Assembly: GCF_026151205.1 (NCBI RefSeq) | Contig: NC_087083.1 | Location: 10,787,460-10,843,943 of the forward strand | Source of the DNA: Bolinopsis microptera | Lineage: Eukaryota; Ctenophora; Tentaculata; Lobata; Bolinopsidae | Length of the DNA: 56,484 nucleotides | Direction of reading: 5' to 3' | Part shown: piece after piece, positions 1,756 to 40,900 of the stretch | Numbering within the stretch: the stretch's first letter is position 1 | How the letters are laid out: each line of letters begins with the position of its first letter | Made by a program: the position numbers and the translations under genes | Notes under the pieces: generated by a model | Told to the model about the DNA's origin: nothing | The model's database searches: none | The model's input: only the letters and a program-made list of their open reading frames with translations

Positions 1756-4700
1756 GTGAGTACACACAACATTCTCTTTACTTAAATATTGGAGAAGTAG
1801 AGGGGGTCATTGAAACTTATTTATATGTTCATAAACAGTTTGTAAACAGTTTATATAAGCAAGTTACTCACTAACAGCTCCTCGACACGGATTTATCTAC
1901 AACCAACAGCTGTTTACAAACTGTTTACAAACTGTTTGTAAACTGTTTATAAACTGTTTATAAACAGTTTACAAACAGTTTATAAACTGTCAATAAACTG
2001 TTAATAAACTATTTATAAACTGTTTATAAACGGTTTATAAGCTGTTTATAAACTGTTTATAAACTGTTTATAAACTGTTTATAAACTGTTTGTAAACAGC
2101 TGTAGCTGTTGGTTGTAGATAAATCCGTGTAAAGGAGCTGCTCGCGACCAAGTGTGTTGGTGAGGAACTTGCTGAAAATAAATTGATATACTTTTTTGCG
2201 ATGATAACAAGCACCTTTTTTTTTTGCAAAAGTCGACCGTTCTCTCACTATTGCCTACTAAAGTACTAAAATTCCACACAGGTGACTCAGTGACGGGAGG
2301 GTGGAGTGGGTGGTCGGTGTGGGGGAAGTGCACGTGCACTAACAACATCCCCTCCAAGGCCCGGTACAGATACTGCACTAACCCGGCCCCTACGTGCGGG
2401 GGCCGGGTGTGTTATGGGGAGAGTGGGGACACTACGAGTTGTTTAGATCTAGCTGTTCAAGGAGGGTCAGTTTTATCTTTATTTAATCAGTGTTTCTTAA
2501 CAGTTTTGTTTTCATCGGTATTTCAGTCTTAGATAAGATTTAATCTATATTTTGAGACGGTCTGTTCCAAAAAGGGCCATACCTTGATACCTTGGCTTGC
2601 AATGTGTCTGTGTCCGAACATCGTTAAGATTGTTAATTTAAGTCGGAGTGCTAAACAACTTGATTATGACTCATAAATAATTATCTGCCAGCTGTTCTAA
2701 AACTATAAGTATATGATGCTTGAATAACTTTAGTGTCTCTAACAGATGGGGTGTCTGGGGAAGATGGAGTAGCTGTTTGTGTGATGTAGAGGGTGAAGTG
2801 AAGACAAAGGAGAGGCTGTGTGATAATCCAACTCCTAAATGTGGGGGCAGGTAGTATATTGTTTTCTACTTGATACTAAATGTGGGGGCAGGTAGGATAT
2901 TGTTTTCTACTTGATACTAGGAGGGATTAAGAAGAAAGGGCAGAATTGAAGCTGTCCAGCCCTTAGTTGTATGGCAATTACCGGAGCTGAATTTGTCCAA
3001 ATTAGGACCGGAAAAAGTAGGTTTTATTTAAAATTTCCATCGCTAATAAATAATAACTACAGCACATGTGAAGGAGAAGCGACATACTCCGAGACGTGTG
3101 CTATAGACGGAGGCTGGACCGGTTGGGGGAACTGGAACACGTGTGAGTGTGATCACGTGACGGGAACAGGGACTAGAAGTAGAACTAGATCTTGTACTGA
3201 TCCTGTACCTTCTTGCTTGGGGAGGTGAGCTTATACTTATATATATTTTGCTCCTTTATAAAAATATTTATTGTTTTTTTTATCAGGACATTATTTTTGA
3301 AACACCCTGTATTTCGTTATTCAAGGCAGAAATTGGGCACAAAATAAATGTTCAGCTAAGTGACACTTAGCTGAAAATGTAGCCTAATTAGTGTGTATTA
3401 TTGTTTTCGAACTATTAATTATTAGTTTTGACGGACAGTATTATTCTGTACAGGGAATGTGACGGTGAGAGTGTAGAGTACACACCATGCGACGATCAGT
3501 GCTGTAAGTTAAAAGGGATTTTACTTTATTTTACACATATCAAGTAATATGTATTGAAAACAAAGGCTATTGCTACAATCGAGTTTAACAATGTTCCAAC
3601 CATTTTGAAACCAAGTAGCTTAATATGTAGAGCCCTCATTTTCGCAAAGTTGCGAGTTCGAATCTTTGTAAGTTTGTACTACCGGGCCGTCATGGTTTGA
3701 CGTAGTCATTGACTACAATGTTTACCCATATAATCTTAGGTAAAACAGAGGATGGTGGTTTAACTGACTGGGGAGATTGGAGCACGTGTGAGTGTGATCA
3801 CGTGACAGGTACAGGAACTAGAAGTAGGACTAGATCTTGTACTGAACCTGTGCCTTCTTGCTTTGGGAGGTGAGATTCAAGTTTTAGCTATGTTAAATTA
3901 AGTAAGATTTCTTCTGATCTATTTTATTTGCATTTGGTGAATCAGCTTAGCCGGATTCAGGTCAGTTACCAGCTACTGTTGACAGCCTGTAGCTCTGCTG
4001 CAAGTCAAATTCACAAGTTTTAAATTGACAATTCAGTGCTAGTTCAGCTAGTGAGTTATGTCCAATTTAAGGATAAGACTGGATCTGGACGAGTCATTTT
4101 AGGGCCTACCAAATAATTTCCACCGGTATTTTGACAATTTAATTACGAATACAAAGGAGTTCTTAATTCCGTACAACCATCCAGGAGTTGTGACGAAAAT
4201 ACGCTAGATACCGGGTCCTGCAATGATGGATGTTGTAAGTTTCCTTTTGTTTTCTGCACTGTTAGTTAGGGCAAGAATTGCTGTTTATGGGTCAATCTGT
4301 GAACAAATTCGTAACAAAGGTTTGTCTACAGGAATGTGTTGTCCATAGTCCCAGGAACCACCAAAAAAAACCGTCCAGCCGAAACTTTTGGGCAAAAATT
4401 TTTATAGTCATTTTTCTCCAGGAACCCATACGCCCCACCCCTAATATTGGTTATTCGGCTCCCGAAGGTCTTGAGATCTCCACAGAGGGTGCAAAATGAC
4501 CGCAATGGCCACATTATGGCAGGCGAATGATAGTTTCAGAACGATTGGAGCTTTATTTTTCGAAATAAGTGGAATTTTTCGAAATTTTATTGAAATATCG
4601 AAAAAAAATACACCAAATTATTTTTAACGCTTATTTCAAATCTATTTAAAAACTCATCTACAAATAACAAATACAGTTAATCTAAAATGTGTATTCTCAG

Positions 4701-7700
4701 TAAATACCATGACAATTATTTATACACAGTTAATATTAATCAAAATTCGCTTGTTCTTCAACTCTTGCCCTAACTATGTTCTACGATTCTTAATAGTATA
4801 ATAACAAAAGGCTGAGATCTGGATGTTCGGTTGAATATCATTTGACTTGATTCATACCTCACGACTCTGTTAAGATAACTCCGTTAAACTCTCCAGGCAT
4901 AACAGAAGATGGGAACTGGTCAGTGTGGGATGAGTGGTCAGAAGACTGTGAGTGTGATCACGTGACTGGAGAAGGAAATTACCGTCGGTCCAGGACTTGC
5001 TCCGACCCTTCTCCATTTTGCAACGGACGGTATGTTGGCCGTTGGGGTCTGTCGCGTGGTGTGTGACGTCATGTCACGTGGTGTGTGACGTCATGTCGTG
5101 TGGTATGTGACGTCATGTTGCGTGGTATGTGACGTCATGTCACGTAGTGTGTGACGTCATGGCACGTGGCGTGTGACGTCATGTCGCGTGGTATGTGTCA
5201 ATTCGATGGGGCATATTTCAATAAATGATTTTATAGAGTAATTTTGTAGTTTTTCTTAATTATCTCCAATTTTTTTCTCTCAGGGAGTGTGTTGGAGATT
5301 CTGAAGAAGTCAAAGTCTGCTCTGAAGACTGCTGTAAGAATTTAAAGTTTAAATTTTGCTTTTCTATCTTAAACCAATAAAACCAAATTGGTTCCAAGTT
5401 ACAATTTATTGAAGTACGATCACTTCCCCCCACAAGCCTTCAACCCCCGTTACCACATCCCCCCCCCCCCTAGTTTTCTCTGAACCCGACAAGCCTTCAA
5501 CCCCCGTTACCCCCCTCGCCCCCCCCCCCCCCCCTCGCCCCCCCCCCCCCCCCCCCTCGCCCCCCCCCCCCTTAATATTCTCTCCACTCAGGTAAGCTGG
5601 AGGATGGGAGCTGGTCGGAGTGGGGAGAATGGACCACTGAGTGTGAATGTGATCACGTGACAGGGACAGGACATTACACCAGAACCAGGACATGCTCTGA
5701 TCCACCACCCGCTTGTGGCGGCCTGTAAGTAAAAGCTACTACTTATAGAACTAAGTCCGATCTACGCCAGATAACCCCCTCCATATATCCCGTTCCGCAT
5801 CAGGGTTCGCAGTTCCTCTTTAGAGTTTGTCTCGTCTTCCTTCAGTAACATGGACAAGTAGCTTTGTCGGCTGTGCTTGGGATTTAAAAGCGTATGATTT
5901 ACAATTTACATCTGGACACTGGACATATGATTGGATTTTATCGAAATGTTTAGCCTAGAATCCCTCTAATAATCATGTGATTTTCAGATCTTGTGAAGGC
6001 AGCTCAGAAGAGACTACAGATTGTTCAGAGAGCTCATGTTGTAAGTAGATAATTACAACAGTAGCAATTACATAAGAACACAACATATTTTACCATAATT
6101 ATTTCGCATGTTCCAAAACGGTTTTGTTAGAGTGTTAGGTGGCATTTTAAGCATGATGCATTTACAGGTGAATCTTAATCTAGTTTAGGATATAATAGGA
6201 GTCAGGACTGACTGGAAAAGTTGGGGCACGTGATAATTACACGTGCGAATTACCCGTGATAATTGCACGTGATAATTACACGTGATAATTACACATGATA
6301 ATTACACGTGCCCCAATTTTCCTTTTGCTAGGTTGAAGGTTACCACCGTCCCGTCATGCAGTGGCGTAACGTTGCCTGTTGGCACAGCGGGGTCGGCGGG
6401 GCCCTCCGTTACACCACTGCCGTCATGGTCTGGCGTAGTCATTGACTACAATAGTACAATGTTTACCCATATAAATTTAGGTAAAACAGAGGATGGTGGT
6501 TTAACTGAATGGGAAAGTTGGGGCACTTGTAATTGTGATTTCAGCACAGGCGATGGCACCAGGAACAGGACTAGATCTTGCAGTGACCCTGTACCTGCTT
6601 GCTTTGGAAGGTACCAACATTAGAATTTTGATTATGATTAAATTTACACAGCAATACAATAAGAATACAAATAATTGCTGTGCAGGACATTCAAGTCAGT
6701 TACAAATTGTTCAATTCTAAGGACATAGAATCAACATATAATATGTAATAATTACGAAGCTTCACGTTTAAAAACAGTATTTGTGCATGTTTTATTCTGA
6801 ATAATTGGATACAACTTGTCCTCAGTTAATATTTATGGGTAATAAACCATTGTGATGTTTATTTCAGCCAGTGTGACGAGGAGGAACTCGAAACTGGGGC
6901 CTGTCACGAATATTGCTGTAAGTTAGCTCGCTTTCCTATCTTCTTTTCTTTTTTCCTATTTAAAAACATTCTTCCTATCAATCTTCTATTTCTATGTTAT
7001 TTTCTATTATCCTATTCTCTATCTATTTATTTATTCTTCTATTATCCTATTCTATTATCCTATCAATCTTATTCAAACTGTGTTGCATACATTTAAAAAG
7101 GAAGTTTGTTCAAACTTCCTTTTTATCTATCATTTTAACTTTTAATAGTCGAATTGAGTGACAAGAGCACATTAAAAAAATTAAATACTTTTCAAATTTT
7201 ACAGAGTACAGCAATAAATGAATTCAAAATAAAATCGTTCAAAATATCGCTCCCATCTGTAAAATAAGATGGGCACCCAAACACGGTAAACACATAGTGA
7301 ACTATGTCCGCAATTACTTGGACGACCCAATACATCGAATTAATCTAAATCCAAAAATGTATGTATGAAAAACTATTAAATAACAAACAAATCTCAGGTA
7401 AATAACTAGCTGTGGATATAGTGCTAAAATTTCAGATAAAATTACAGAAACATGAGATATGGTTTTTAATGTGAATGCAGTTAAAAAGTGTGTGGGGGAA
7501 GTGTGATATGATGTTGAAAGTATTGGAAGGTAGATAAATTTTTTTTAAATAACAATAATAATAATATGGGGAGCAAAGAGACTAGGCTAGACTGTTGTTT
7601 AACTATCCAATAAACATTTCCATAGATGCTTAGTGACCACAGATTTGAAAAGACTAGTAGACACAATCTGTCTTACCAGTAAAGGGAGTCCATTCCACAG

Positions 7701-10700
7701 TATATTAGTTCTGTAGAAAAATGATTTTGCCAGTGGAATTTTTGAGGTACAGATGGTGTGTGAATCTTGAATTAACTTAGGTAAAATTGATGACACAATA
7801 GACAGACTGTCGAGGTGGCAAAAAATAAGATCATTTAAGTCAAACTTTTGAGATAATGGGAGAATGTCGACAAGCCTGCACTTTTTGACATATTGCTCAA
7901 GTGGATAAATGCGGCCCTCTTCAGATAAAATTCATTTAATAGCTCTCTTTTAGAGACTTTCTAATTTATCACTAAGTGATTTATTACAAGGGCGCCATAT
8001 TATGGAAAACTTTTTGAATTGGCTAGGAAAAAGGGAAAGGTAAAGGGCCCAGCGACGTTTCTGATCAATGACAATATGGCCATTTCTTCTGACCATACCA
8101 TTACCAAGTTGTTGGCAGGCCTTATTATAAAGTCTGTCGCATTAACTATTCCAACTTAGCTTAGGAGTAATATCGACTCCAAGATCTTTTTCTAACTCTA
8201 CATATAAAAGAGGAGAGCCATCAAGATTATATGCGAATGGAGGAGATAAGGATGGTTTCCCTGAAACAACAAGTACCTACTTTACATTTTGCTGGATGGA
8301 ATCGCATTTTGTTTCTTAGTGCCCAATCAGAAAGATAGTATATATTATCTATTTGCAAATTATCATTATCAGAAGATGAATGTACTAATTTACGCCAGAT
8401 TTTTGTATCATCGGCAAACAAAAAAATATCAGTAATATCCGAAAGGCCAAGGGGAATATCATTGATAAACAGCACAAAGAATAAAAGACCAAGAATAGAG
8501 CCCTGGGGGACACCAGAATTAACTGAAAGGGTAGATGACATCTCATTACCAATAACTACTCTTTGGTAACGGCCTTGAAGGTAATTGGTAAGGAATTTGA
8601 GAAGTTTACCATCGATGTTATGTACGATTTTAGCTTATGAAGAAGGATATGATGATATACATACATACATACATGTTACATGGTAAGGTCTCCTCCTAGT
8701 CGTTGGAGTGGCCTGCATCACACACATCGCGTTGGCGGCGTAACATATGTCTCCACTGTACTCGGTTGGTAGCCAAAGCTTCTGTTGTGTCGTTGTCGAT
8801 GTTTTCAACACCCGTAAACTTAGCAGCATCTTCGAGTACGCAGGACTTCCAGTTCTTACGGGGTCTGCCCCTTGACCTCTTTCCATAATTTGGCTTCCAG
8901 TTCAACAGAAACCTCGGTAGTCTAGAGTCTGGCATTCTAACTACATGTCCATACCAACGTAGCCTGGCAGCACTGATGAAAGTCTCAACTGACTTGATGC
9001 CAGCCCTCCTAAGAACTTCGTCGTTGGTCACATGAAAGAACCATTTAATCCTAAGGATCCTTCTCAAGGAGGTTTGATGGAAAACCTCGAAGCGTTTCAT
9101 CTGCTTTTTGGTGGTGTTCCAGACTTCAGCTCCATACAACAAGATGGTGAGGACAGCAGCCCTATAGATCCTGATCTTGGTTGGAGTCTTTATAGTTCTG
9201 CTATTCCAAATGTTCCAGAGCTGATGAAAGGCGCCATTAGACTTCTGGATACGGACATCCAGGTCTCTGTTGATTGTCCCATCCCCACTGATAGTTGCAC
9301 CCAGGTAGACAAAGTTGCTAACCTGCTCGACGGGTTCACCCTCAACCGACAGCTCAATACAATCATCCTTGATGAAAGGTCGCTGGGAGGCGCACTTGCT
9401 TACAGCCATGCATTGGGTCTTCTTTGCATTTATTCTGAGCCCAGCGTAGGAGCTGTAATGAACTAATAGATCAGTTGATTCCTGTAGGCCTTCCCCTGAG
9501 TTGTCCATAATAGCCATGTCATCAGCATAATCGGTGTCCAGAATGACCTTTTCCTCGACCGTCTTCATTTCTTTCTGCAGCACTGCGCCTTGACTGATGA
9601 TCTTGTTGGTCTCAGCCAGAAATGCAGAAAAGTTTAGGCAAAAATTAAAGACAGGAGGTGCTTGAATGTCACCCTGACCTGTGCCTGAGTTAACATCAAA
9701 CCAGTCTGTCAGCTCCCCATTAACCCTCACGGCACTCATGGTACACCCAAAAAATGACTGAAATATTCTGACATATTTTTCAGGCAGCCCATAGTGTCTC
9801 ATACTGCACCAAATAAAGTCCCTTCTGATAGAATCGAACGCTGCCTTGAAATCCACAAAATTAATGAAAAGAGGAATGTTAAACTCAAGACAGTTATGAA
9901 TAATAGTTCGGAGAGAATAAATCTGATCAATACATGAGCGGTTCTGTCTAAATCCGCACTGATTCTCCCTGAGGAGACACTCCATACCAGCATGTAAGAA
10001 TCATCTGAAAAAGCTTGGATGCTGTAGACCTTAAGGTGATCCCTCTGTTGTTCCCGCAGACTGAAGTGTCTCCTTTCTTCCCAATAACAATGATCACACC
10101 CTTTACCCAATCTTCAGGAACAGTCTCTTCTTCCCACACTTTCTTGAATAGACACTCTAGTTGATCAACTAGAGCACTCGCACCATACTTCAGTTGCTCG
10201 TTAGTTTTCCCGTCCACTCCTGGGCTTTTGTTGTTCTTAAGCTTTGTCAGGGAATAACTAATCTCGTCTCTGGTGGGTGGTCCATCCGAACAAGAGAGGG
10301 AGTTAAAGTGGGGTTGGGGTGGTACTGTATCAAGGTCGGCAAGGTCGACACTTGATAATGGAGGGTTCAGAAGTTCAGTAAAGTGCTCCTTTTACCTATC
10401 CCTCTGCTGTTGGGGATCCGTGATCTTCCTACCGTCCTTGTCCCGGACACAAGATGCTTGAGGCTTCTTGTTCTTACCAGAGATCTTCTTGATCTTTGCC
10501 CATACCTCACGCTGCTGACCTTTGCTCGCTGCTTCCTCAAGATCAGTAGCTATTCTAACTGCCCAGTTATTGTCGTCTAGCTTGCTGCTTTTCTTGACTA
10601 ACTTATTAAGTTTAGAATACTCTGACCTATTAGCGTCTGAGTTTGGGTCTTTGCGCTTAAACTGTGCCCGCTGAATCAATAAATCCTTGGTCTTCCGTGA

Positions 10701-13700
10701 CAGGTGTTGCTCCTTTGCCTTCCGGGGTCTTTTGCCTAGTACCTCCAGTGATGATATACAGAATCAATTAATGCCTTAGAAAAATCAAAATACACAACAT
10801 GATCGATAATTTTTTCGTTAAGAGACAATGCCATGCTATCACAAAAGTCAACCATATTGGTTGTGCATGACTTGTGCTCTAGTGGCCATTTGAGGAAGAC
10901 CATACATATTCCTCTCCAGTAGAGGTAAGCCACTTTGTGGCAGTTTTCACAGCAGTTTGCTTGGCCATGGGTGTTTCAAGTTCAGACATCAACGTGTCAT
11001 GTTGGATACTCTTGTTCTGAACAAAATCTGAATGCAACTCCAAGAAGTCCTCACATTTAACAGAATCCCTTTTAAGTTGCATGTTTGCTTAAATTGAATC
11101 TGACTGTTATATCTTTGTAAAACTTTGTTAACATTTTGTCAACTTGAACTGATGTCAGTGTACATGTTTAGGTAAAACAGTGGATGGTGGTTTAACTGTT
11201 TGGGGGGATTGGAGCACATGTGAGTGTGATCACAGTACAGGAACAGGAACTAGAAGTAGAACTAGATCTTGTACCAACCCTTCACCATCTTGCCTCGGAA
11301 GGTTTAAATCTTATTGAATCTGTTTACCCCCTATTAGCCTATTATACATATATATAGCTATATGTCCTTGGCTTGTGTGCATGTAACCTTGCTTAACTTT
11401 ATAGTTGTTCTCGAAACATAAATACCTGCGAGTTGAAATATTCCGACGGGCACCATTGGTTTTGGCAGTTTGCATGTTTAAAAAAATTAAAAAATTAAAA
11501 AATATAAAAATATATATAAATACCAGGCAGTGTGAAGGAGATTTCGTGACAATAGGAATTTGTAACGACCAATGTTGTAAGTTTCTTTAGGTTTGATTAG
11601 TTTAACAAATTCATGGGACCGTAGTTGGATTGCTCTTTAAAAAGTGCATGTTATGTAAACCTGTTAACAGGTAGAAGGCTGAGAAAAGAAATATTTTCAG
11701 GTAGAACAATAAACGGTGGTTTTACTGTATGGGGAGATTGGAGCACGTGTGAGTGTGATGACGTGACAGGAACAGGGACTAGAAGTAGAACTAGATCTTG
11801 TACCGACCCTTTACCTTCTTGCTTTGGGAGGTCAGTTTTGATGAAGTGATAATTTTGAATATAAGTAAATGAATAATAAAAATTTTTTCGCGAAATGGTG
11901 CATTAAACTTACGTTGTTGGATATAAATCTTCAATACCAGAAATCCAATTTCAGTGATTGTATAGGGGAGTTAGACGAGATATCGTCATGTGACGACAGT
12001 TGTGGTACGGGTACGTTATCTAATAAGTTAAGGGTATATTTGTTTAGGACAATCATTTAACAGTTAAACACTTCGTATAGCTGTATAAAATAAAAATATA
12101 ATCAAACATGGTCTAAATTATTCTAATTTTATTGGATCATACATTCTCAAAATTGATAATGTTGAAACATAATACTGAACAGTGAACATGTACCCGTAAT
12201 AAACATTCTACCAGAACCAAGTGAAATAAGAGAGGAAGTGTGTGACCCATTACTCTGCGAGAAAGACATTACCTGTAATCTAGATGAGTGCTATGTTGAC
12301 GTAGATGGTTCCATCTCTGCTATAATTGGTTTGTCATCTTGAACTCGTGTAAGAGTCCAATCGTATCAACGCATCTTCATTCTAATTTTTAGTATGTACT
12401 CTGGAGATGACTAACTAATTAACTAATTAATTAATTAATTGAATCACTATTCACATTTTTTCAACATTAGGAAAGGTGTGTGATCTGGATGATATCAAGG
12501 TAGCAGGATTCTGTCTCAGTCTATATGTTGTGGTTATCATTGGTGCTGTTCTAGTGTTATTAGCTATCCTTGCTATAGGGACTTTTATCTACCGAAGAAG
12601 AAGGAGTAAAGTGAGTAAACACTGTCTATAATCAAGCCGGTATATAATAAAAGTATAAAGAGAGCTTGATGGATATTATTATTTCATTATATACGGTAGT
12701 GTTGCTTTGTTAATAAGCATATCAAAAATCAGGAGGTCCCCTATGTTATTGAAAACGTGCATCGCACGGAGACCGAGGATTTTGATGAAGGAGCATTAAC
12801 CCTTTCTGATACTGATGTTAGGTACCGGGCACCCTGTTGTGAAGCTGATGATGGAGATTATCAAATCTTTACAAATGAGTTTGCTCTCGGTAAAATTGTT
12901 TTCCTTTTTTTAGTAACATCTTAATTTTTGATGGTCACATGATAAGTGATGTATGGTCACATTTTCTCGCCACCTGTATAGTTAAGTAGCTGTTTATAGT
13001 TAAGTAGCTGTTTATAGTTAAGTAGCTGTTTATAGTTAAGTAGCTGTTTATAGTTAAGTAGCTGTTTATAGTTAAGTAGCTGTTCACATTGATGTAATTC
13101 TTCCGAACCAATGATCATGCAAATCAGGAAACGACGGTAACGACTACATAGAAAGACAGGAGATACCAACAGCAGAAAGAGTACCCGCAACAGCAGAAAG
13201 ACCTGTCTCCACTTACGTTACTGCATACGATACTGTTAACCCGGCCGAGAACAATACTCAATACGAAAATAAACCAGAAGTCAGTTCTTCTAATGAAAAC
13301 GAAGCTGGACCAAGCTCTTCATCTTACGAGAATAATATTGGGCCAAATATTTCATCGTATGAAAATCAGGCAAAGCCAAGTACTTCGTCAACGTACGAAA
13401 ATCAACCAAGCACTTCTTCAACGTACGAAAATCAACAAAGTACTTCGTCATACGAGAATCAGAGCAGTGTCCATATAAAGGACGATATTAAATACGAGAA
13501 TCAGAAAGAGTCACCATTGTCAGCTTCAGCTATCGAAAATGACGATAATTCAATCTTTACCCCCTACGAGGATATGGCACTTCGCTCTCACCAGGTATCT
13601 ATTACTTACTCCTTACAAAAAGCTTCTTAACACTCTCACTTAAAGTGGCTATGATTTGCTTAAACTTCAGTGTGCTGACATTGTAGTATGAGATAAACGA

Positions 13701-27900: not shown

Positions 27901-30900
27901 GCGATAAGTACACCATGCATGTTACCGTGCCTTATTTTAAAAGTGTAACTTAATATTCATACTCAACTTCTCATGAGCACACATGGGCTGAACGAGGTTT
28001 TAACATAATATGGTGTGTTTCACGTACTTTGCGCACAAATGAACAACTTCAATGTAAGAAATCAGGCATAAATAGTAGATACAGCCGGGAAGCAATCATT
28101 TTTACTGGCACAAAAGTTGTTACATGATCAAATGATGCCGATGTATTTTAATATCTGCAGTCAGTGAATTGGTTTATTACATTGGCTAAACTAGTCCATT
28201 AGAGACAATCCCCTTACGAGGGGCTTTCAATGTGTATCGCCTCACAAACAGTAGTGTATGTTATAGTCCCTCCAGTTATACACTAACTTATACTTACAAT
28301 ACTGACTACAAACTTGTCAGCTGGAGAAGCAAGAGGTAGAAAGTGACGAATTGTGTCGTATGAAGAACGAATGTCTCAACAAACTTGCGTATTCTGTTCC
28401 AACCTTGTGTACTGCTGGTGCTGATCAGGTATAGTTAACACAATGTTATCTTATTTATTTGTGATAGCTGGTAATTTAACGTTCTTACAATAAAGGAGGA
28501 GGAGATGTGTTATATTTGTAGTTTATAGTTGTATTATGGATTTATAGTCTGTTAACAACTGATTTAAAGACTTTAGAACAGAGTAACTGAAACTACCCTC
28601 AAGTGATGCCCATAATATATATCATTGACAGTTCAAAGCTTTGAGTTTATATCACTAATAGTGCAAGTACACGATTAGTGCTGACTAGAAGTGGTCTGTG
28701 ATAATATGATATTAGAATTAGAATCAAATTTACACATCAAATAATATTATAAAATGTTCAGGTCGTCCCAGAGATACACGCTAAAAGTATGCAGTTCCAA
28801 AGCAAAGACTTCTGTATTCCAGTTCCTACTGGAAAAGGTAATATTTAGGCTTATTTCGCCAGATTAGGTCTTGTAAAGCAGGATATATAATTTGATATAC
28901 AATTGTGCATCTTTTCCACTTATTAGAGTATATATAAACTGCATTGAAATCGGAAGCTTCATGACAACAAGAAAGTTAGAAAACGTGGGATCCCATATTG
29001 CTCATAATAGCGGGACTGAAAGACTCCTTCACTCAGAAACTCTAAAACATATTATACATGTAATATATGTAATAGTTGTAATATATGTAATAGTTCTCTA
29101 GTAAGCACTGACATACTCTAGAATAAAACTGCACTCCCCTCAAACTCTGAGACAGTGTTGTACTTCAGGAGCGAGTGTGAAGAACCCAGCAGCGTTTGTT
29201 GTTTTGCAGGATGTTTTCTTAAAGAGCACTACTGAACAGATAGCCTTGCTGATGATGGATGTTATTAATGTCGTGTTCAAGTATGTTCCTTATTAACTAT
29301 GTGTGATGATAACATTCTGTATTATTGGTGAAATATGTGTTATTCCGAAGGTATGTCATGATTGTGGGAATGTTTTATGGTCTGAAATATTACATTGATA
29401 ATAATAAGATTTAATTAATTAATTAATTGGTTATGTCCGCTCTAAATGTTTCCTCGCGTCAGGTTGGACGAAGTGAATTACTTTGTTCTGAGTCAACACA
29501 ACACTCTGAACTGTTTTATAGCTGAGCGACTCACAACTTCTACCACACTTATCCAGGTACTAACATGTGGTTACACGTGGTAACACGTGGCAACACGTGG
29601 TAAACACGTGGTAAACACGTGCTAACACGTGGTAAACACGTGGTACACACGTGGTAAACACGTGGTAAACACGTGGTAAACACGTGGTAAACACGTGGTA
29701 AACACGTGGTAACACGTGGTAAACAAGTGGTAAACACATAGTAAACACGTGCTAACACGTGGTAAACACGTGGTAAACACGTAGTAACACGTGGTAACAC
29801 GTGGTAAACACGTGGTAACACGTGGTAAACACGTAGTAACACGTGATAACACGTGGTAAACACGTGGTAAACACGTGGTAACACGTGGTAACACTAAACA
29901 CAGTGTAAACATTTATGGCTAAATCTCCTATCCGGTTAACCCTGTAATGTTAACATATCTTTTTGTAAGAATCATCTTACTTGTGAGTTAAAGTTAAAGG
30001 ACTCTCTAAAAATCAAAAGTTGGATGACAACGGAACAACTAGACGTGCTAACATGTTTTCATGTGACTCTTAAGACAGTTCTAACACAATTTCTTTCTCC
30101 AGAATGTCGATATCTTACATGTTTTTTGTTCAGGAACGGATATTAAAGCTAGTCGAACACATCGTGTTTGTCCTGAGATACATCCCATCAGCAGAGTTGG
30201 AGGCACTATTAATCCTCCTAAAGGACTCACCTGACTTTAACCTGGCTTCACTCATCCTGGCTACTATCAATAAGCTGGTATGTCACGTGATGCCCATATA
30301 TGGTATTATCCCCATTACGTCACGTGATTGGTTCGGCATGTGATATTAGATTTGACTTCTCGTTTATCTATTTGTCCCTGTTTCACATGCTAATTTAGTA
30401 GTTTAGATTAAAACCGCCGGTCCCCTATTACACACAATAGCGATGTTAACATTTCTCCACCTGATGCCCATATAAGGTAATATCCAGTATCCAACCCACC
30501 TGATGCCCATATAAGGTAATATCCAGTATCCACCCCACCTGATGCCTATATATATGGTAATATCCTCAGATAACAGCTGATCCGAGTCTGAAGAAAGTTA
30601 TGTTAGAGTTGGGGCTGTTGAACAGCTTACAGTTCTGCCAAATACAACTCTTACAACTTCAACAAGGTACTAATTACATTTAGTACGGTCTACTGTATTT
30701 CACCGCACTATTTTAGTTACATTTACCTCTTGTAATAAAACTTAATAACCGACATACTTTAAGAAGCTAAGTGGGTTTTAAATCTTAAAGAGTTGGACGT
30801 TCATTGAGAAATGTATTGACTTAAAAGTAGACAAGTTAAGTTTCAAGACTGAAATTATAGCGTCAGTGCTTTATATTTTGATTCTACAGACGACGAGAAG

Positions 30901-33900
30901 TTAGATGATAATTACCTTATAATGCTGATGACCACATTGAATACCTTACTAGACAACTGCCCGGAAGCTTATCAGAAGTAAGATAACACCTGTTGACCAT
31001 ATTTGGTAGTATAAAAGTGATAAGTTGGTTCTGTCAGTTTCGTACTGGTCATATTTTACTATAAACAACTATGATTATTTCAATACACTTGAGATAACAT
31101 TTGAATACAATCATTAATTTTCGGCATGCGAGAAAAATAATTGTCATTAAAAGAGACTTTTCATCTTCAAAGAACCGATAACGCTAGCTCTAAAGGAAGT
31201 CTAAAACCCTATACATTTCAGTTATTTGGAACTACAAGGTCGCGACTTCCTGTACGACATGCTACACGTTCCTGCGTTTAGAGCATACGTTCTGCTAGTT
31301 ATTAAAACTCTCTCTACCTACGTAAGTACATACTTTATTTTACTTTGATTCATGTAGTGAGGAGACCCCTTGCGTGTATTTCTGATATTCTGCTGTTTTC
31401 CAGCAGATTCTAGTCTTATTTCCCAATCCCCACGTGATGACTATATATGGTAATATCCACCCACGTGATGACTATATATGGTAATATCCCAGGTAGCATC
31501 AGAGGATCAGGACGATGTGAGAGCACTACTCCGTATGATGCACGAGAACCTTGATAACTCAGAACTAAAACTCGACATCCTGGACTGTTTATCTGAATTG
31601 TTCCTCTCCTTCCCTCCCTCCCAGCACAGATTCCAGGTACACTCCATCACATTGGTGCCCATATATGGTAATATTCTGATCACTTCATTTGCCCATATAT
31701 GGTAATATTCTGATCACATTGATGTCCATAAAATATATAAAACGGGCATATCCTGTCCAAACCCAGGATGCACTACAAGAAGAATTTGTTTTCACTTGTA
31801 TGAATGAAAAGCATTAATATATAGTATTGTTAATTATCCCCATAGTCAGTTAGTTAAATCCGATACTTGAGCTACTTTATCAGCTAGATCTCCTCACATG
31901 CCCTGTGCCCATATATATATGGTAGTATTCTGATCACTTTACATGCCCATATATGGTAATGTCTTATCACTTTACATGCCCATATATGGTAATATTCTGA
32001 TATTATTACCAGGCTCCTGATGGGTTTCTGGTTATCTCTAACCTCATCATTAGTGCTGGACAGATTGCAGGTGAGCTAGATAGGGTTATATCTAATTTTA
32101 ACATCTGTGCGAATTTTGTTATCTGAAACTCTCTAGAATGATGACTTGATTTTTGGTGCGTTAAAAGTTGAAAGTTTGAGAAAAATGTATTATTTTATTT
32201 CTTAATTTATCAACATAATTAACATTTTATAATTTAACCACCACACTATTCCCTCGTCTAACCACACTATCCCCAGATGAGAACTACATGCCTATAGTAG
32301 GAAAGGTTATAAAACTCTTACAGTCAGCCCTGCACAATAGTCCTTCTAACATTCACTACTTTGAAACCCAGGTATTATTCGGGGAACTATCCGGGAATTA
32401 TCCGGGAAATGTCCGGGAAATGTCCGGGAATTAACTGTTATGCTGTTCCCGATATAACATAATATTTGCTCGCTGTTATAATTTATAGTTCTGTATATTT
32501 GTATTTAAGTTTCTAAATCGATTTTATTTTTTAGTGAAGATTTAACTCAACCCATGATTTGTACATTTTTGATAGGTCGAATACAGTTCGCTTACCAAAT
32601 CTCTGGAATTGTTACCCTGTTTCCATAGCAACTCTCCTTGTCAAGAGAACATAATCACGGTAATACTTTTTACGCACATTTCGACATTTCGCATTTAATC
32701 ACATATTTTATAATGATTTCAAATCAGCTTTTTTTAGCAAATCATTACTTGTAACCAACATGTTAAGTTCAGTATCCCATTAACAATTCCCCACGTGATG
32801 CCCATATATGGTAATAGCCACCCTACGTGATGCCCATATATGGTAATAGCCACCCCACGTGATGCCCATTTATGATAATAGCCCGCGCCCCCTCTTCCCA
32901 GCTCTTCAAGTTTCTAATGGGACTAGCTCTGGATCTGGAACCGGAACTGTGCGGCCCCTCATCACGTGACCTGTCTAATGACACTGTTCTAGTTTCTAAA
33001 CACACTGAACTTGTGGACAAGATGGAGTATTATGATAGGTTAGTGGTCACGTGATATCATAGTGACGTCATAGTTATGTCATAGTTATGTCATAGTTATG
33101 TCATAGTTATGTCATAGTTATGTCATAGTTATGTCATAGTTATGTCATAGTTATGTCATAGTTATGTCATAGTTATGTCATAGTTATGTCATAGTTATGT
33201 CATAGTTATGTCATAGTTATGTCATAGTTATGTCATAGTTATGTCATGGTTATGTCATAGTTATGTCATAGTTATGTCATTATAGTTATGTCATAGTTAT
33301 GTCATAGTTATGTCATCGTAGTAATGTAGTCAGCAAGTTTTAAACCTAAATTCAAATCAGTTTATTTGATAAAATAATACATGTTTTTATAGCTATGTAG
33401 TTATGTGTCCTATAATGATATTAACGTTGTTGTTATGTCCCAGGTGTATTATCTACCCCAGAGTCCTCACTTCCATATTGGTTCTAACAAGACTTTCTCA
33501 ATCGGTTAGTTTTATTTACTCTAAAATATACTGTTAGGGAGGTGAGGCCACGTGGTATGATGAAACCTGTCACGTGTTAGATACGTGACAACAGCTGTGA
33601 TATGATTGGTTAGACACCTCCCTGCTAAAACTAAGACAAGGTGTTGTGCTCTACTTTTGTAATATTATAATTAATCAATATCGAATATAATATGACAAAC
33701 TTTGCATTTTAACATTCTTGTGGTTATTTGGAAGTAGTCTCAGGGAGTCCACACCCCTACTCGCGGAGAATCAGGAAATAAAACTCGGGTTTACAGAATA
33801 TAACATAAAGTTAAAAACACAATAATTAACGAGTCTAGTTAATAGTTAACAGCTACAATTAAAACAGACTTGCTAAAATTAGCAGGATATAATTGATTAT

Positions 33901-36900
33901 AGAAGGATGTACCACCGAGGCGAAAGTAGTATTATATTTTGAGAGTTGAGACAAAGCAAGACTAAAATCACCTAATTTTGAGACATAGCAACACTAGAGT
34001 CACCTAATTTTGAGACACAGCGAGACTAGAATCACCTAATTTTGAGACATAGCAACACTAGAGTTGCCTCGCAACCTACTGCAACTCTCAGCCATCTTGG
34101 TCAGCTCAATAACCGGGTCCTTATTCCGGCCCGTGTACCCGGACACTCTCCTACACACCGCCTTAGTGTACTTCCTCAGTCCCTGCCCCCTACTGATCAG
34201 CACAATGGGGTTTATACAGGAGTTCAGGATGGGTAACATGGTGCCACAGATGTAGGGTACTAGGATACTGGTACCGGACAGTACGTAGTGCCAGTAGTAC
34301 ACCGCAAACAGGATGAAGAAGGGCGTGTTGAAGACCGCGAATATAATTGTTAGTCGCAGAACTGTTCCTGTTATTCGCAGGTTTATCCTGGGGAGGGGCA
34401 GGGTTAAAATACGAAATGGAAGCTTTTTAATGGGGATTATGGCATAGAACTTGGCTGTTGTTGATTAAAAAATAGAGAAAGTGAAGGGTTTAAGACGTTA
34501 AATCTTTAAGTGAACCTATTTGTGTTAATACGATAATAGCGAGGCTGCTGTTTATACATTACCTTATATGGTAGTGTTGCTATAGTAACCTGTTCGTATT
34601 AATAGCGAGGCTGCTGTTTATACATTACCTTATATGGTAGTGTTGCTATAGTAACCTGTTAGTATTAATAGCGAGGCTGCTGTTTATACGTTACCTTATA
34701 TGGTAGTGTTGCTATAGTAACCTGTTAGTATTAATAGCGAGGCTGCTGTTGATACATTACCTTATATGGTAGTGTTGCTATAGTAACCTGTTAGTATTAA
34801 TAGCGAGGCTGCTGTTGATACATTACCTTATATGGTAGTGTTGCTATAGTAACCTGTTAGTATTAATAGCGAGGCTGCTGTTTATACGTTACCTTATATG
34901 GTAGTGTTGCTATAGTAACCTGTTAGTATTAATAGCGAGGCTGCTGTTGATACATTACCTTATATGGTAGTGTTGCTATAGTAACCTGTTAGTATTAATA
35001 GCGAGGCTGCTGTTTATACATTACCTTATATGGTAGTGTTGCTATAGTAACCTGTTAGTATTAATAGCGAGGCTGCTGTTTATACGTTACCTTATATGGT
35101 AGTGTTGCTATAGTAACCTGTTAGTATTAATAGCGAGGCTGCTGTTTATACATTACCTTATATGGTAGTGTTGCTATAGTAACCTGTTAGTATTAATAGC
35201 GAGGCTGCTGTTTATACGTTACCTTATATGGTAGTGTTGCTATAGTAACCTGTTAGTATTAATAGCGAGGCTGCTGTTTATACGTTACCTTATATGGTAG
35301 TGTTGCTATAGTAACCTGTTAGTATTAATAGCGAGGCTGCTGTTTATACGTTACCTTATATGGTAGTGTTGCTATAGTAACCTGTTAGTATTAATAGCGA
35401 GGCTGCTGTTTATACGTTACCTTATATGGTAGTGTTGCTATAGTAACCTGTTAGTATTAATAGCGAGGCTGCTGTTTATACGTTACCTTATATGGTAGTG
35501 TTGCTATAGTAACCTGTTAGTATTAATAGCGAGGCTGCTGTTTATACGTTACCTTATATGGTAGTGTTGCTATAGTAACCTGTTAGTATTAATAGCGAGG
35601 CTGCTGTTTATACGTTACCTTATATGGTAGTGTTGCTATAGTAACCTGTTAGTATTAATAGCGAGGCTGCTGTTTATACATTACCTTATATGGTAGTGTT
35701 GCTATAGTAACCTGTTAGTATTAATAGCGAGGCTGCTGTTGATACATTACCTTATATGGTAGTGTTGCTATAGTAACCTGTTAGTATTAATAGCGAGGCT
35801 GGTTCTGAGTCTCTGTCTCCGGAACAGTTCCAGCACCTGAACAATAGAGCAACCCACGACCAGTAGTACAGGAACAGCAAACGGGAGCATTATCCAGGTG
35901 ATCAGATAGTGGGAGGGAGTCAGGTCCATGTACAGTCTGGGAGGGACCTTAGTTTAGTGTGGAGATTAGTTTAGTGTGGAGCTTAGTTTAGTGTGGAGCT
36001 TAGTTTAGTGTGGAGCTTAGTTTAGTGTGGAGCTTATTTTAGTGTGGACTGTGGAGCTTAGTTTAGTGTGAAGCTTAGTTTAGTGTGGACTGTGGAGCTT
36101 AGTTTAGTGTGGAGCTTAGTTTAGTGTGGAGATTAGTTTAGTGTGGAGCTTAGTTTAGTGTGGAGCTTAGTTTAGTGTGGAGCTTAGTTTAGTGTGGAGC
36201 TTATTTTAGTGTGGAGCTTAGTTTAGTGTGGAGCTTATTTTAGTGTGGAGCTTAGTTTAGTGTGGAGCTTAGTTTAGTGTGGAGCTTAGTTTAGTGTGGA
36301 GATTAGTTTAGTGTGGAGCTTAGTTTAGTGTGGAGCTTATTTTAGTGTGGAGATTAGTTTAGTGTGGAGATTAGTTTAGTGTGGAGCTTAGTTTAGTGTG
36401 GAGCTTATTTTAGTGTGGAGCTTAGTTTAGTGTGGAGCTTATTTTAGTGTGGACTGTGGAGCTTAGTTTAGTGTGGAGCTTATTTTAGTGTGGAGCTTAG
36501 TTTAGTGTGGAGCTTATTTTAGTGTGGACTGTGGAGCTTAGTTTAGTGTGAAGCTTAGTTTAGTGTGGAATCTTGTGCTGTTTAATCTTGGTTCCAGTGT
36601 TGTTTGATAATCAACAAGTTGTCAATACAGTTTTCTATAATATAATGAGTATAAATGCGCGGATGATTAAGCAACATGACGTGACCAACATGACTAACAC
36701 GTGACCCTCACGTGACCAACATGACTAACCCGGACATAAAGAGGTAGTCGAAGAGGCCCTGTCCTACAGCAGGTAGGAAGAGGAGGTATTGGTAGAACAC
36801 TAGGTAGGAGTAGTCTTGCCGTAGTGGAATTGTGTTGTACAGGTCAAACACTGCTAGACAGCTCCAACCGGTTAGCACCACCAAGGAAAGAGCTGTTACT

Positions 36901-37887
36901 ACGGACTTTAACATCAACCTGGAGATTAGAGTTGTTACTGCGGACTTTAACATCAACCTGGAGATTAGAGTTGTTACTGCGGACTTTAACATCAACCTGT
37001 AGATTAGAGTTGTTACTGCGGACTTTAACATCAACCTGGAGATTAGAGTTGTTACTGCGGACTTTAACATCAACCTGGAGATTAGAGTTGTTACTGTGGA
37101 CTTTAACATCAACCTGTAGATTAGAGTTGTTACTACGGACTTTAACATCAACCTGTAGATTAGAGTTGTTACTACGGACTTTAACAATTAACATCAACCT
37201 GTAGATTAGAGTTGTTACTACGGACTTTAACATCAACCTGTAGATTAGAGTTGTTACTGCGGACTTTAACATCAACCTAGAGATTAGAGTTGTTACTGCG
37301 GACTTTAACATCAACCTGGAGATTAGAGTTGTTACTGCGGACTTTAACATCAACCTAGAGATTAGAGTTGTGACTGCGGACTTTAACATCAACCTGAAGA
37401 TAAGCATCCATGTTAGGGAAATAATCTTAATTGCTCGGCTACTTTACACCAACCTGAAGGCGGTGTATTAGGAAAAGGTTATATTTAGATTAGAGTTGTT
37501 ACTGCGGACTTTAACATCAACCTGGAGATTAGAGTTGTTACTGCGGACTTTAACATCAACCTGTAGATTAGAGTTGTTACTGCGGACTTTAACATCAACC
37601 TAGAGATTAGAGTTGTGACTGCGGACTTTAACAGTTTAACATCAACCTGAAGATAAGCATCCATGTTAGGGAAATAATCTTAATTGCTCGGCTACTTTAC
37701 ACCAACCTGAAGGCGGTGTATTAGGAAAAGGTTATATTTAAAATGGGTTCCTCCAGGTTACTCGTTTAGTTATAATTACGTACCTTGATGTAGGGACTAA
37801 GATAACTAGAGTTCTCGTTAAGGATAACAGTAGCTGTAACCATGCTGAAACTCGCGCTGACACCCCTGTAAGACACCATATTAGGGT

Positions 37888-37923
<36 letters not shown>

Positions 37924-40900
37924 TCAAATATAGAGATATTATTAGGGTTGGTTGGTTTGAATCAGCTTATTTTCAGGGTTGATATTTGACAGCTTTGAGC
38001 TCCACTTTAATATGATCACTTTTATAATGTACCTTAGATTAAAATCTACATTGTTCACACTGTGGGAGCAACCTTACTCTGACTAATTTCAATAGCATCA
38101 AAAGTTGCACTATTTTATTAATTGAAGAATTATTACATTATTCTCCTTCGTATTATAGACCCTACTGTTTAAGAGGAGTTAATAACATATGAATTATAAG
38201 TAATATATAACATAGTACTTATAAAACGGAATTACGTAAATGATAAATTAGTATTTTAAAAATAAAAATAAAAATTGTAAAGAATAAAAGTCGAACCTGT
38301 AATGAAGAAGGCGAGTATAGTACAGTAATCTCCCATGTTCTTCCTCCCTGTAACGAAGAAGATCCAAACCAGAGCGTGTAGGATTGCAGATATCCCGCTG
38401 AAGAAATAATACGGTTAATTTTATTGGATAATTGGTTAATTAACTGATAGATAAGTAATTGTTAAGGTGGTTAGTTGTACGAACTATGATGGATAGTCTA
38501 ACCAGTTTGATTCGCGTAGTTCTAGGGTTAACCCCTTTCCATTGATTTGTACGTTGGGTAAGGGGTATGGTCCGTGTTTGGGTAATATTGATAGTGTTAA
38601 AGTTAGATTTGGGTCTAAACTCTAAACCATAGGATGTAAGAACCGACAGAATCGAAAATTGCCAGAAATAAGTTGGCAATTTAAACCTCAGTGTGATTGT
38701 AATGTCACCAAGCATGAAAATACTACACTTAGCAGGCGTTTATCTGTAACCAGTGCGTTCACATACCATGCAGGCGTTTCAATTTCTGCGTCTTCCCGGC
38801 TAAACCCACTTATAATTATAATCATAGTTATATCAAGTCCGAACCCAGAGCTGGTTATCTAGAAAGCATGAGCTGTTAGAAAATGCCCAACACATTTAGT
38901 GGTTACAAGGTATTTTAACACTTGGAGAGCTGGGACTCTGGAGTCATGAGACGTCAGAACATAGAAATTCCTTCAACCAATATTTTCCTGATTCACTTCA
39001 TCCAGTGTTAAAAAACATTTCTTAAGCTATCCTGGTTCAGTGTATCACCCCTCCCCCTATCTTCTCACCTAGAGATATCAGAAGTAGCTAGAAGAAGGTA
39101 GAGGTAGTGCATGAGATTATCCCTCTTCTGGAAGTAGAATTTCCATATCAGCACGTTACACGCCACACAACATAAACCTGTCACGTGGAAGCTGTTACCA
39201 TGGTGATTATTTGAATTTGAGATTATTCGCGTTCAGTTACCATAGCAATGCGCGCGCCTACAAGTTCAGACCCTTTAATAGTTTAAATAGCAGTAAATAA
39301 CAAAATATACCAAGTATAACGGGTAGTACCTGTAAGAATGAAGATTGGTATAAGGATGCCCATAGCTCTGGTCTGCATGATCTTCTTGAAGATGAGCTCC
39401 TCGTCCGAGAGCACTGCAGTAGAAACTATCAGGCCACTGTTTGTCCGGTTCATCCTCTTTTAATGTGTTATTTCATTAACGCTAAAATTCAAAGAACTTT
39501 TAATTGGTATCAAGAATAGTGGTGGTTCTTTCAGAATCCAGGTTAATACAACTAAAAAAGCAAACAATCTCTATTTCTCGGTTATCTATTCCGAATGGGA
39601 CAGTTAAACAATAAACAATGGGTTGGATAATACATATAGATAAAAACGGTTTAAGCACATTATAAATGCCACCCAAGTGGCTCATAATATTATTATAAAT
39701 AAGAATAAATGTGATTACAGTTTTGATTGGCGGAGAGCAAACAACAGCTGCTTAGCAGGTGTCCAGCAAAGCATAAAATGCTCTCTTTATGGTGTCTTTA
39801 TGTAATATGCAGGAACTGGAGAACCCGTTATGTCATTATAAATATAATTTGTCTCAAGGCAACGCGATTGCAAATTGTGAGGAATTAATGATGGGTTCTG
39901 TCTGGCTTGTGAAGTCGTGTTTAAATCCGAAGGTGTGCAGTATTATTGATGGTTCGTTACAGCAACTATTCTGGGGAGATATGTCTGGGGAAATATGTCA
40001 TTAACCGTTTACTGTTTACTGCAGCGGTGGTAAATGAGTGAAACGTTTGATAAATTCTAACCAACAGGGACCACTGTATGACACTTTGCAACTGTTTAGT
40101 GAAAATTTACCTCAACTATTGCTCTCTCATAAAGAATTCTGATTAATAAATCATCTTTTAATAAATGACGCACCACGTACTTTTAATTATAATCTTTTGG
40201 GGCTTCAAACATTTCGATAATACTGGCGTGACGTCACGTGGTGTCACGGCTACCGGACAACTTCACCCAATTTGGACTTTTCCTTTAATGGGAAAATAAT
40301 TAACAACCCAATCAGTTAATAGTTAACTTTGAAACGAAAATTTCACCCAATCATCACTAGAAATAACTTAGAAAAGCGTGCCAAAAAGGATGCGATCCAA
40401 TACTCCTCAAACATCAAGCATCAAGAGGAACGAGTTCCGTGCTGAGCCAGGCTCGAGACTCTGGTACTCGTCGGAAGTGCTGATTTCAAATTTGTTATAT
40501 CCTGCACCCAAGTCTAATCTTTTCCTAGCAAATAACTAAATATCAAAACATCATTGTAGTTTCTGAAAAAATGATAAACCCCCTTTAATGAAGACCCAGG
40601 AGTAAACGATAATAGCCCAGACATTGAAACTACCTAACTATCATCAGCTGAGCGATACTGTGGGACCGGATGTAAGGTACTGCAAGGTCCTGTTGTAGCT
40701 AACTAACTAAACTTTCACGTCATTACTTGAATGGATCTCTAAGTTGAATTCCAAAATAAAAGTACTACCAATTCAGCTAATTGCTTCTACCGCGGGCTCC
40801 ACCGCGTTCTCTGGGCTATTGTCTAGGAATCTGTGGTATTCAATAATATGTTTGTGTTTACCTTTAAGAGTTTAAGTACGCTTGAAACATCTGATTGGAT

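Follow-up and report, generated by a model that had tools for sequence, protein, structure and literature searches.

Tandem duplication of AGGT-containing segments is a described route to new introns (the Rogers model; Hellsten on ATP2A1/2), and the excerpts of PMC4974935 on which we draw also include the fission-yeast gene SPOG_01682, in which an intron lies across four duplicated 24-bp exonic units, and potato RdRp, in which intron-exon structure is duplicated. In human segmental duplications, internal tandem repeats at exon-intron boundaries can give rise to alternative splicing and new introns, and the coding ones are mostly in frame (excerpt of PMC2812944). A tandem repeat in the intracellular loop sequence of a GPCR is exemplified by the 48-bp VNTR of DRD4, which varies in length (excerpt of PMC3164202), and the fly ratchet points of recursive splicing consist of a juxtaposed acceptor and donor (excerpt of PMC8605326).

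We have analysed a stretch of 56,484 nucleotides from the ctenophore Bolinopsis microptera (contig NC_087083.1, positions 10,787,460 to 10,843,943; hereafter the window, to which all coordinates without a contig or locus label refer), in which a receptor gene on the minus strand carries a 39-bp tandem array at the junction of its intron 4 and exon 5. The array resembles the AGGT duplications, in which a tandem copy made at a coding AG|GT yields new splice sites and leaves the protein unchanged, and it resembles potato RdRp in the duplication of intron-exon structure; unlike the cases in the excerpted account (PMC4974935), the receptor segment measures only 39 bp, lies across an already existing junction, provides 17 GTTGATG sites and is overlain by a 245-bp higher-order repeat. 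Like the human boundary repeats, it is a minisatellite at an exon-intron boundary; those repeats, however, have about 4 units on average and transcript-supported changes in the part of PMC2812944 considered here, whereas the receptor array has 18.6 copies and is known from DNA alone. The DRD4 repeat, as excerpted (PMC3164202), is exonic, encodes part of ICL3 and is always translated, whereas the receptor array is probably mostly intronic, concerns ICL2 and would reach the protein depending on acceptor choice. The array units share with the ratchet points (PMC8605326, in excerpt) the placement of an acceptor and a donor at one AG|GT, but ratchet points are described from long introns, whereas many of the array units follow one another every 39 nt within an 865-nt intron and their donors are middling. 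The duplication process is of a known kind, namely that of AGGT-segment duplication and of boundary minisatellites. Among the papers listed by text searches aimed in part at this point, there was no report of a comparably long in-frame acceptor array. The array amounts to a natural experiment in acceptor competition, in which numerous strong and almost identical 3' splice sites stand in cis at intervals of mostly 39 nt and have a coding read-out; at issue in such a competition is whether donor proximity, first transcription or exon definition prevails.

The receptor gene

The receptor is represented by seven minus-strand exons (39453 to 34036; Table 1), which all join in phase and predict a protein of 371 aa. 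The comparison with Pfam 7tm_1 (34.9 bits, gathering cut-off 30.5) assigns it to the class A (rhodopsin-like) GPCRs. Motifs of this class are an arginine in TM3, a proline in ICL2 and NPxx in TM7, and R129, P136, N314 and P315 are invariant in all seven aligned receptors, while the full D/E-R-Y motif reads TRT in this GPCR. The junctions of the GPCR and of the neighbouring gene were assigned by eye. The single weak spot of the model is the acceptor of exon 2 (1.0 bits, 5th percentile); the donor of exon 1 (CAG|GTACTAC) lies at the 24th percentile of the 42 training donors described below and that of exon 4 (AAG|GTACGTA) at the 98th. Acceptor 34387 was preferred over a 32-nt mini-exon (34547-34516) because it joins in phase and its 371-aa product passes 7tm_1; the 404-aa model with the mini-exon had an ICL3 longer than that of the paralogues and no match to 7tm_1 at E 0.1. 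A 372-aa alternative, in which exon 6 would end at 35837, was rejected, since it loses the VLELF that follows VQ, where the paralogues align gap-free.

Exon 5 has a single match in the assembly (264.65 Mb, 232 contigs), which is exon 5 itself. The next receptors, among the best 90 matches listed in the protein search, are distant: the six aligned paralogues are 23-28% identical, and each of them is one uninterrupted frame.

Table 1. Features of the receptor gene and its arrays, in window coordinates
Feature	Position	Strand	Remarks
GPCR exon 1	39330..39453	(-)	start codon 39453; N-terminus and start of TM1; open frame
GPCR exon 2	39069..39177	(-)	end of TM1, TM2; frame and phase fit
GPCR exon 3	38297..38397	(-)	TM2-TM3 region; fits in frame and phase; acceptor at 11.7 bits
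GPCR exon 4	37784..37865	(-)	TM3 to ICL2; exon end TRTLVILVPTS-AG, phase 2
Higher-order duplication, 245 bp	37241..37740	(-)	2 copies, 96%; ancestral-type acceptor plus units
Twelve truncating acceptors	37198..37706	(-)	translation of each choice
Ancestral-type acceptor CCCTAACATGGATGCTTATCTTCAG|GTTGATG	first exon base 37393, second copy 37646	(-)	9.3 bits, 83rd percentile
39-bp tandem array, probable duplicate of the intron 4/exon 5 junction	36889..37633	(-)	TRF: period 39, 18.6 copies, score 937
Seven frame-keeping acceptors	36918..37152	(-)	37152, 37113, 37074, 37035, 36996, 36957, 36918; 11.1-11.9 bits
GPCR exon 5, zero-block form, 189 nt	36730..36918	(-)	end of ICL2, TM4, ECL2
17-bp array, intron 5	35944..36569	(-)	ends 7 nt from exon 6 acceptor; 4 acceptors
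GPCR exon 6	35778..35936	(-)	TM5, start of ICL3; final 24 nt inside 66-bp array
66-bp array on exon 6 donor	34534..35801	(-)	TRF 19.2 copies; about one good donor per unit, 19 in total
GPCR exon 7	34036..34387	(-)	TM6, TM7, tail, stop; acceptor CCTCCCCAG|GATAAAC, 11.8 bits

The 39-bp array and its splice sites

A preliminary description of this locus had placed a 39-bp array across the start of the exon at 36918 and given the flanking exons as 37865-37784 and 36918-36730; these coordinates stand, and the array delimited by TRF (36889-37633) reaches 30 nt into the latter exon on the minus strand and fills 715 of the 865 nt of intron 4. The same description held that every unit repeats one and the same acceptor, which is not the case, as four types of acceptor end occur among the 17 AG|GTTGATG sites (CTCCAG 6, CTACAG 6, CTCTAG 3, CTTCAG 2). 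The first exon bases of these sites are 37646 (13 nt upstream of the array limit set by TRF), 37599, 37560, 37521, 37393, 37354, 37315, 37276, 37237, 37198 and the seven frame-keeping positions of Table 1; two additional sites read TTCAG|GTTGGTG, one upstream of the array (37706) and one within an interruption of it (37453). In the frame of the gene the proximal units read R-L-M-L-K-S-(A/V/T)-V-T-T-L-I-(S/Y), and a 7-bp insertion in the unit of 37198 breaks the frame there. The unit, GTTGATGTTAAAGTCCGCAGTAACAACTCTAATCTCCAG, is identical to exon 5 at 28 of the first 30 nt and diverges beyond, while its end, AATCTCCAG, resembles TTATCTTCAG, the end of the ancestral-type acceptors 37646 and 37393, in which the usual branch-like sequence and pyrimidine tract are retained. 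The unit holds both an intron end (ATCTYCAG) and an exon start, spanning a junction. A search of the 264.65-Mb assembly, in which very common words were skipped, returned five matches to the array, all within 36889-37657, and a dispersed origin of the unit, which we also considered, is unsupported by this search.

The strength of the sites was assessed with position matrices from the same genome. Scallop myosin was aligned splice-aware to five myosin loci and, after 9 of the 51 myosin introns had been dropped by eye, the remaining 42 acceptors and 42 donors served as the training set; since the aligner itself prefers pyrimidines before AG, the acceptor matrix is not independent of it. In leave-one-out scoring the median of the 42 real acceptors was 6.4 bits and the best of them reached 10.9, and none of 1152 control AGs (from introns of the training genes and of the neighbouring gene) reached 11 bits, 13 of them reaching 8. 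Among the 19 acceptors in or just above the array, those ending in CTCCAG or CTACAG (12 sites) scored 11.1-11.9 bits, those in CTTCAG (four sites) 9.2-9.3 and those in CTCTAG (three sites) 8.0-8.3; 18 of the 19 lie at or above the 74th percentile of the training acceptors and the remaining one at the 67th, while 36918 (11.9 bits) exceeds all 42. These scores relative to the training acceptors mark the acceptors of the preliminary description as good by sequence. With all 19 at least at the 67th percentile, the intron holds several acceptors strong enough to be usable, as is characteristic of alternative tandem acceptors. In most units the AG|GT doubles as a middling donor: CAG|GTTGATG scores 5.9 bits (29th percentile; reached by 30 of the 42 donors) and TAG|GTTGATG 4.6 bits (19th percentile), and 14 donors inside the array exceed the 25th percentile. 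Among the myosin matches of this genome, two adjacent ones (C3:9154012-9154203 and 9154255-9154485) cover the same stretch of the myosin head (105-167 and 102-167) and are perhaps mutually exclusive exons.

The exon 4/5 junction falls at codon 139, three residues past the invariant loop proline P136, which places the insertion point in ICL2, as the preliminary description had it. Aligned with the six paralogues, the form without extra blocks is gap-free between R129 and the beginning of TM4; a gap of one residue follows further along TM4. The same description proposed that more distal acceptors would lengthen the loop by multiples of 13 residues. The arithmetic is right (39 bp equal 13 codons), and the proximal blocks are open in the gene frame, from 37152 to 36918 only; the prediction survives for the seven acceptors in this range, which would yield full-length receptors of 371 to 449 aa with 0-6 extra blocks, but fails for the other 12 of the 19, which lead to a premature stop (predicted products of 141 to 321 aa) at a distance of between 273 and 1126 nt upstream of the final junction. 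Skipping of exon 5 would keep the frame (308 aa) at the cost of TM4. The score against 7tm_1 falls from 34.9 to 31.5 and 30.1 bits for 0, 1 and 2 blocks, the three forms scored, the last value being under the cut-off. The open frame of the unit is weak evidence of coding use and hardly meaningful: the unit is open in four of six frames, shuffling leaves any given frame open in 44% of cases, and copied coding sequence makes up 30 of the 39 nt, roughly three quarters.

Origin and splicing of the array

The simplest reading of the unit would be a tandem duplication that straddled the intron-exon junction, the direction of this history being presumed. We consider it probable that the array arose in this way, is now mostly intron and has 36918 as its main productive acceptor. 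The duplicated segment would comprise the last ~9 nt of intron 4 (ATCTYCAG) and the first 30 nt of exon 5, and each copy would repeat a complete-looking acceptor and the first codons of the exon, while the copied exon sequence would supply a pyrimidine tract and a TAAC, which we take to be branch-like on the strength of the consensus. Splicing would remove most copies with the intron, and acceptor 36918, which lies furthest downstream, would restore the loop length of the family and make most of the functional receptor. Use of the other acceptors would be noise, the six frame-keeping ones giving a minor in-frame ladder and the twelve distal ones giving stop-containing messages; the open frame would be a legacy of the copied exon, and nothing in the present analysis points to its selection for coding. 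The make-up of the unit, the site strengths and the frame of each choice are read directly from the sequence; it is from the fit to the family and from general splicing rules that we infer both the use of 36918 and the status of the remaining acceptors. In favour of this reading are the match of the unit to exon 5, the gap-free loop and the best 7tm_1 score of the zero-block form, the in-phase gene model, the twelve truncating acceptors and, as described below, the donor array of intron 6 and the nearness of sampled arrays to junctions. It is weakened by the low identity of the paralogues (23-28%), by the poor exon 2 acceptor and by the weak junction trend in the fresh genes. Against this reading, too, exclusive use of a single site is hard to guarantee in the presence of many near-identical strong acceptors, and since the strong upstream acceptors 37706 and 37646 are transcribed first and are non-productive, the downstream site would have to be protected by some rule.

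The gene might instead produce a stochastic mixture. About 17 near-identical, very strong acceptors, mostly usable as donors too, at one intron in ICL2 would then yield receptors with 0-6 blocks together with stop-containing messages, in proportions set by the length of the array, which would itself be part of a wider habit of the genome whereby tandem repeats grow from splice junctions; we regard this broader reading as doubtful. Or perhaps the spliceosome picks among the seven frame-keeping acceptors with functional consequences, so that receptors with 0 to 6 blocks in ICL2 form a ladder of isoforms? All seven sites (11.1-11.9 bits) score above the best leave-one-out value of 10.9, all seven predict full-length receptors and the insertion point is in ICL2; however, the 7tm_1 score drops with each block tested (1 and 2), twelve other strong acceptors truncate the protein and an open frame is expected by chance as often as calculated above. 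On the sequence, a functional ladder is possible but unlikely.

The union of acceptor and donor in one unit (CAG|GTTGATG) also allows a scheme akin to recursive splicing, in which a distal mis-splice would regenerate a donor, be spliced onward and converge on 36918, so that the array would correct itself. The 14 array donors above the 25th percentile, the score of CAG|GTTGATG, attained by 30 of the 42 training donors, and the likeness to the fly ratchet points speak for it, but the regenerated junction (AAG|GTTGATG) is only at the 24th percentile, onward splicing from 36918 would skip exon 5 (the 308-aa frame), and neighbouring units, at 39 nt, are probably too close for an intron (the shortest of the 42 training introns has 87 nt), hence the hops would have to skip units. 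This scheme appears very unlikely to us. We give slightly less credence still to a poison or regulatory intron, in which the upstream acceptors would be the default and lead to decay, receptor output would depend on the frequency with which splicing gets to the proximal sites, and the length of the array would tune expression. Such a role is consistent with the stops that all twelve distal acceptors, both ancestral-type ones included, leave well upstream of the last junction, and with the strength of these acceptors (all at or above the 67th percentile); it assumes nonsense-mediated decay in Bolinopsis microptera, and exon definition, as a general rule of splicing, would favour the 189-nt form of exon 5.

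Arrays and splice junctions in the receptor gene and beyond

The receptor gene carries further arrays at its junctions. The 66-bp array opens intron 6, includes the last 24 nt of exon 6 and has the donor AACAG|GTTACT as its repeated site; it copies a donor junction the way the 39-bp array copies an acceptor junction and is its mirror case. Read past the donor of this array, the gene frame meets a stop three codons beyond the split one. Thus, a junction array in this gene, here one with a duplicated donor and an in-frame stop, need not be kept for coding. Intron 5 opens with an 11-bp array beside the donor of exon 5, which provides 3 good donors, and the 17-bp array lies at its other end (Table 1). 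The notion that intronic arrays generally carry splice sites was rejected: about one good site per unit is found in 3 of 24 arrays, all in this receptor gene. The 39-bp array has 17 acceptors together with 14 donors, a single CCT array has 2 acceptors and 19 of the 24 arrays have no good site, which makes the receptor gene stand out among the genes examined.

The proximity of arrays to junctions was assessed in two sets of introns. In the first set (42 myosin, 6 GPCR and 8 neighbour-gene introns; arrays of period at least 6), 18 of 29 intronic arrays lay at most 20 nt from a junction, where placing them at random within those introns would give 5.9; for the myosins alone the figure was 8 of 19, with 3.5 expected (p 0.004). 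The second set was obtained with an objective flank filter, which kept 51 of the 120 introns called in myosin and CCT genes (13 loci, one of them left without any intron), and included 14 window introns, giving 65; here, 15 of 24 arrays lay within 20 nt of a junction vs 3.8 expected, a result weaker than that of the first set and in the same direction. The window genes, in which 10 of 10 arrays are near a junction, had been inspected before the junction test was designed. Leaving out these two genes (51 introns), 5 of 14 arrays were within 20 nt (1.4 expected, p 0.006) and 3 of 14 within 10 nt (0.7 expected, p 0.03), while the fresh genes alone gave 2 of 3 arrays within 20 nt (0.65 expected, p 0.10) and 1 of 3 within 10 nt (p 0.31). 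The intronic arrays of the sampled introns tend to adjoin splice junctions, and we treat this as a lead, not as a result. Should the tendency extend to the whole genome, minisatellites would originate, or be tolerated, at splice junctions, a point of relevance to the growth of introns.

Single introns may be dominated by such repeats: a CCT-gamma intron (L014 2896-5295) consists of tandem array over 1900 of its 2399 nt, the array ending 19 nt from the acceptor, and in a myosin intron (L010 4420-6364, reverse complement) the array covers 1891 of 1944 nt and ends 13 nt from the acceptor. Alongside the multi-exon CCT genes the genome contains single-frame genes of the cpn60/TCP1 family (C5:15573254-15574738 and C3:16432880-16434349; 570 and 543 aa). 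In the window, the introns of the neighbouring multi-exon gene (30130-33050, plus strand) hold arrays of a CACGTGATGCCCATATATGGTAATATCCA-like unit at distances of 3-18 nt from four acceptors and single copies of it near two donors; this unit has the appearance of a small dispersed element lodging at the ends of introns. Elsewhere in the window, repeated open frames on the plus strand (2182-3225, 4851-5063, 6276-6620 and 11625-11846) exhibit a pattern similar to W..W..C.C(D)..TG.G...R.R.C.DP.P.C.G, which we take to resemble thrombospondin type 1 repeats, and open frames on the minus strand (8230-10763) have the look of a reverse transcriptase, presumably that of a non-LTR element.
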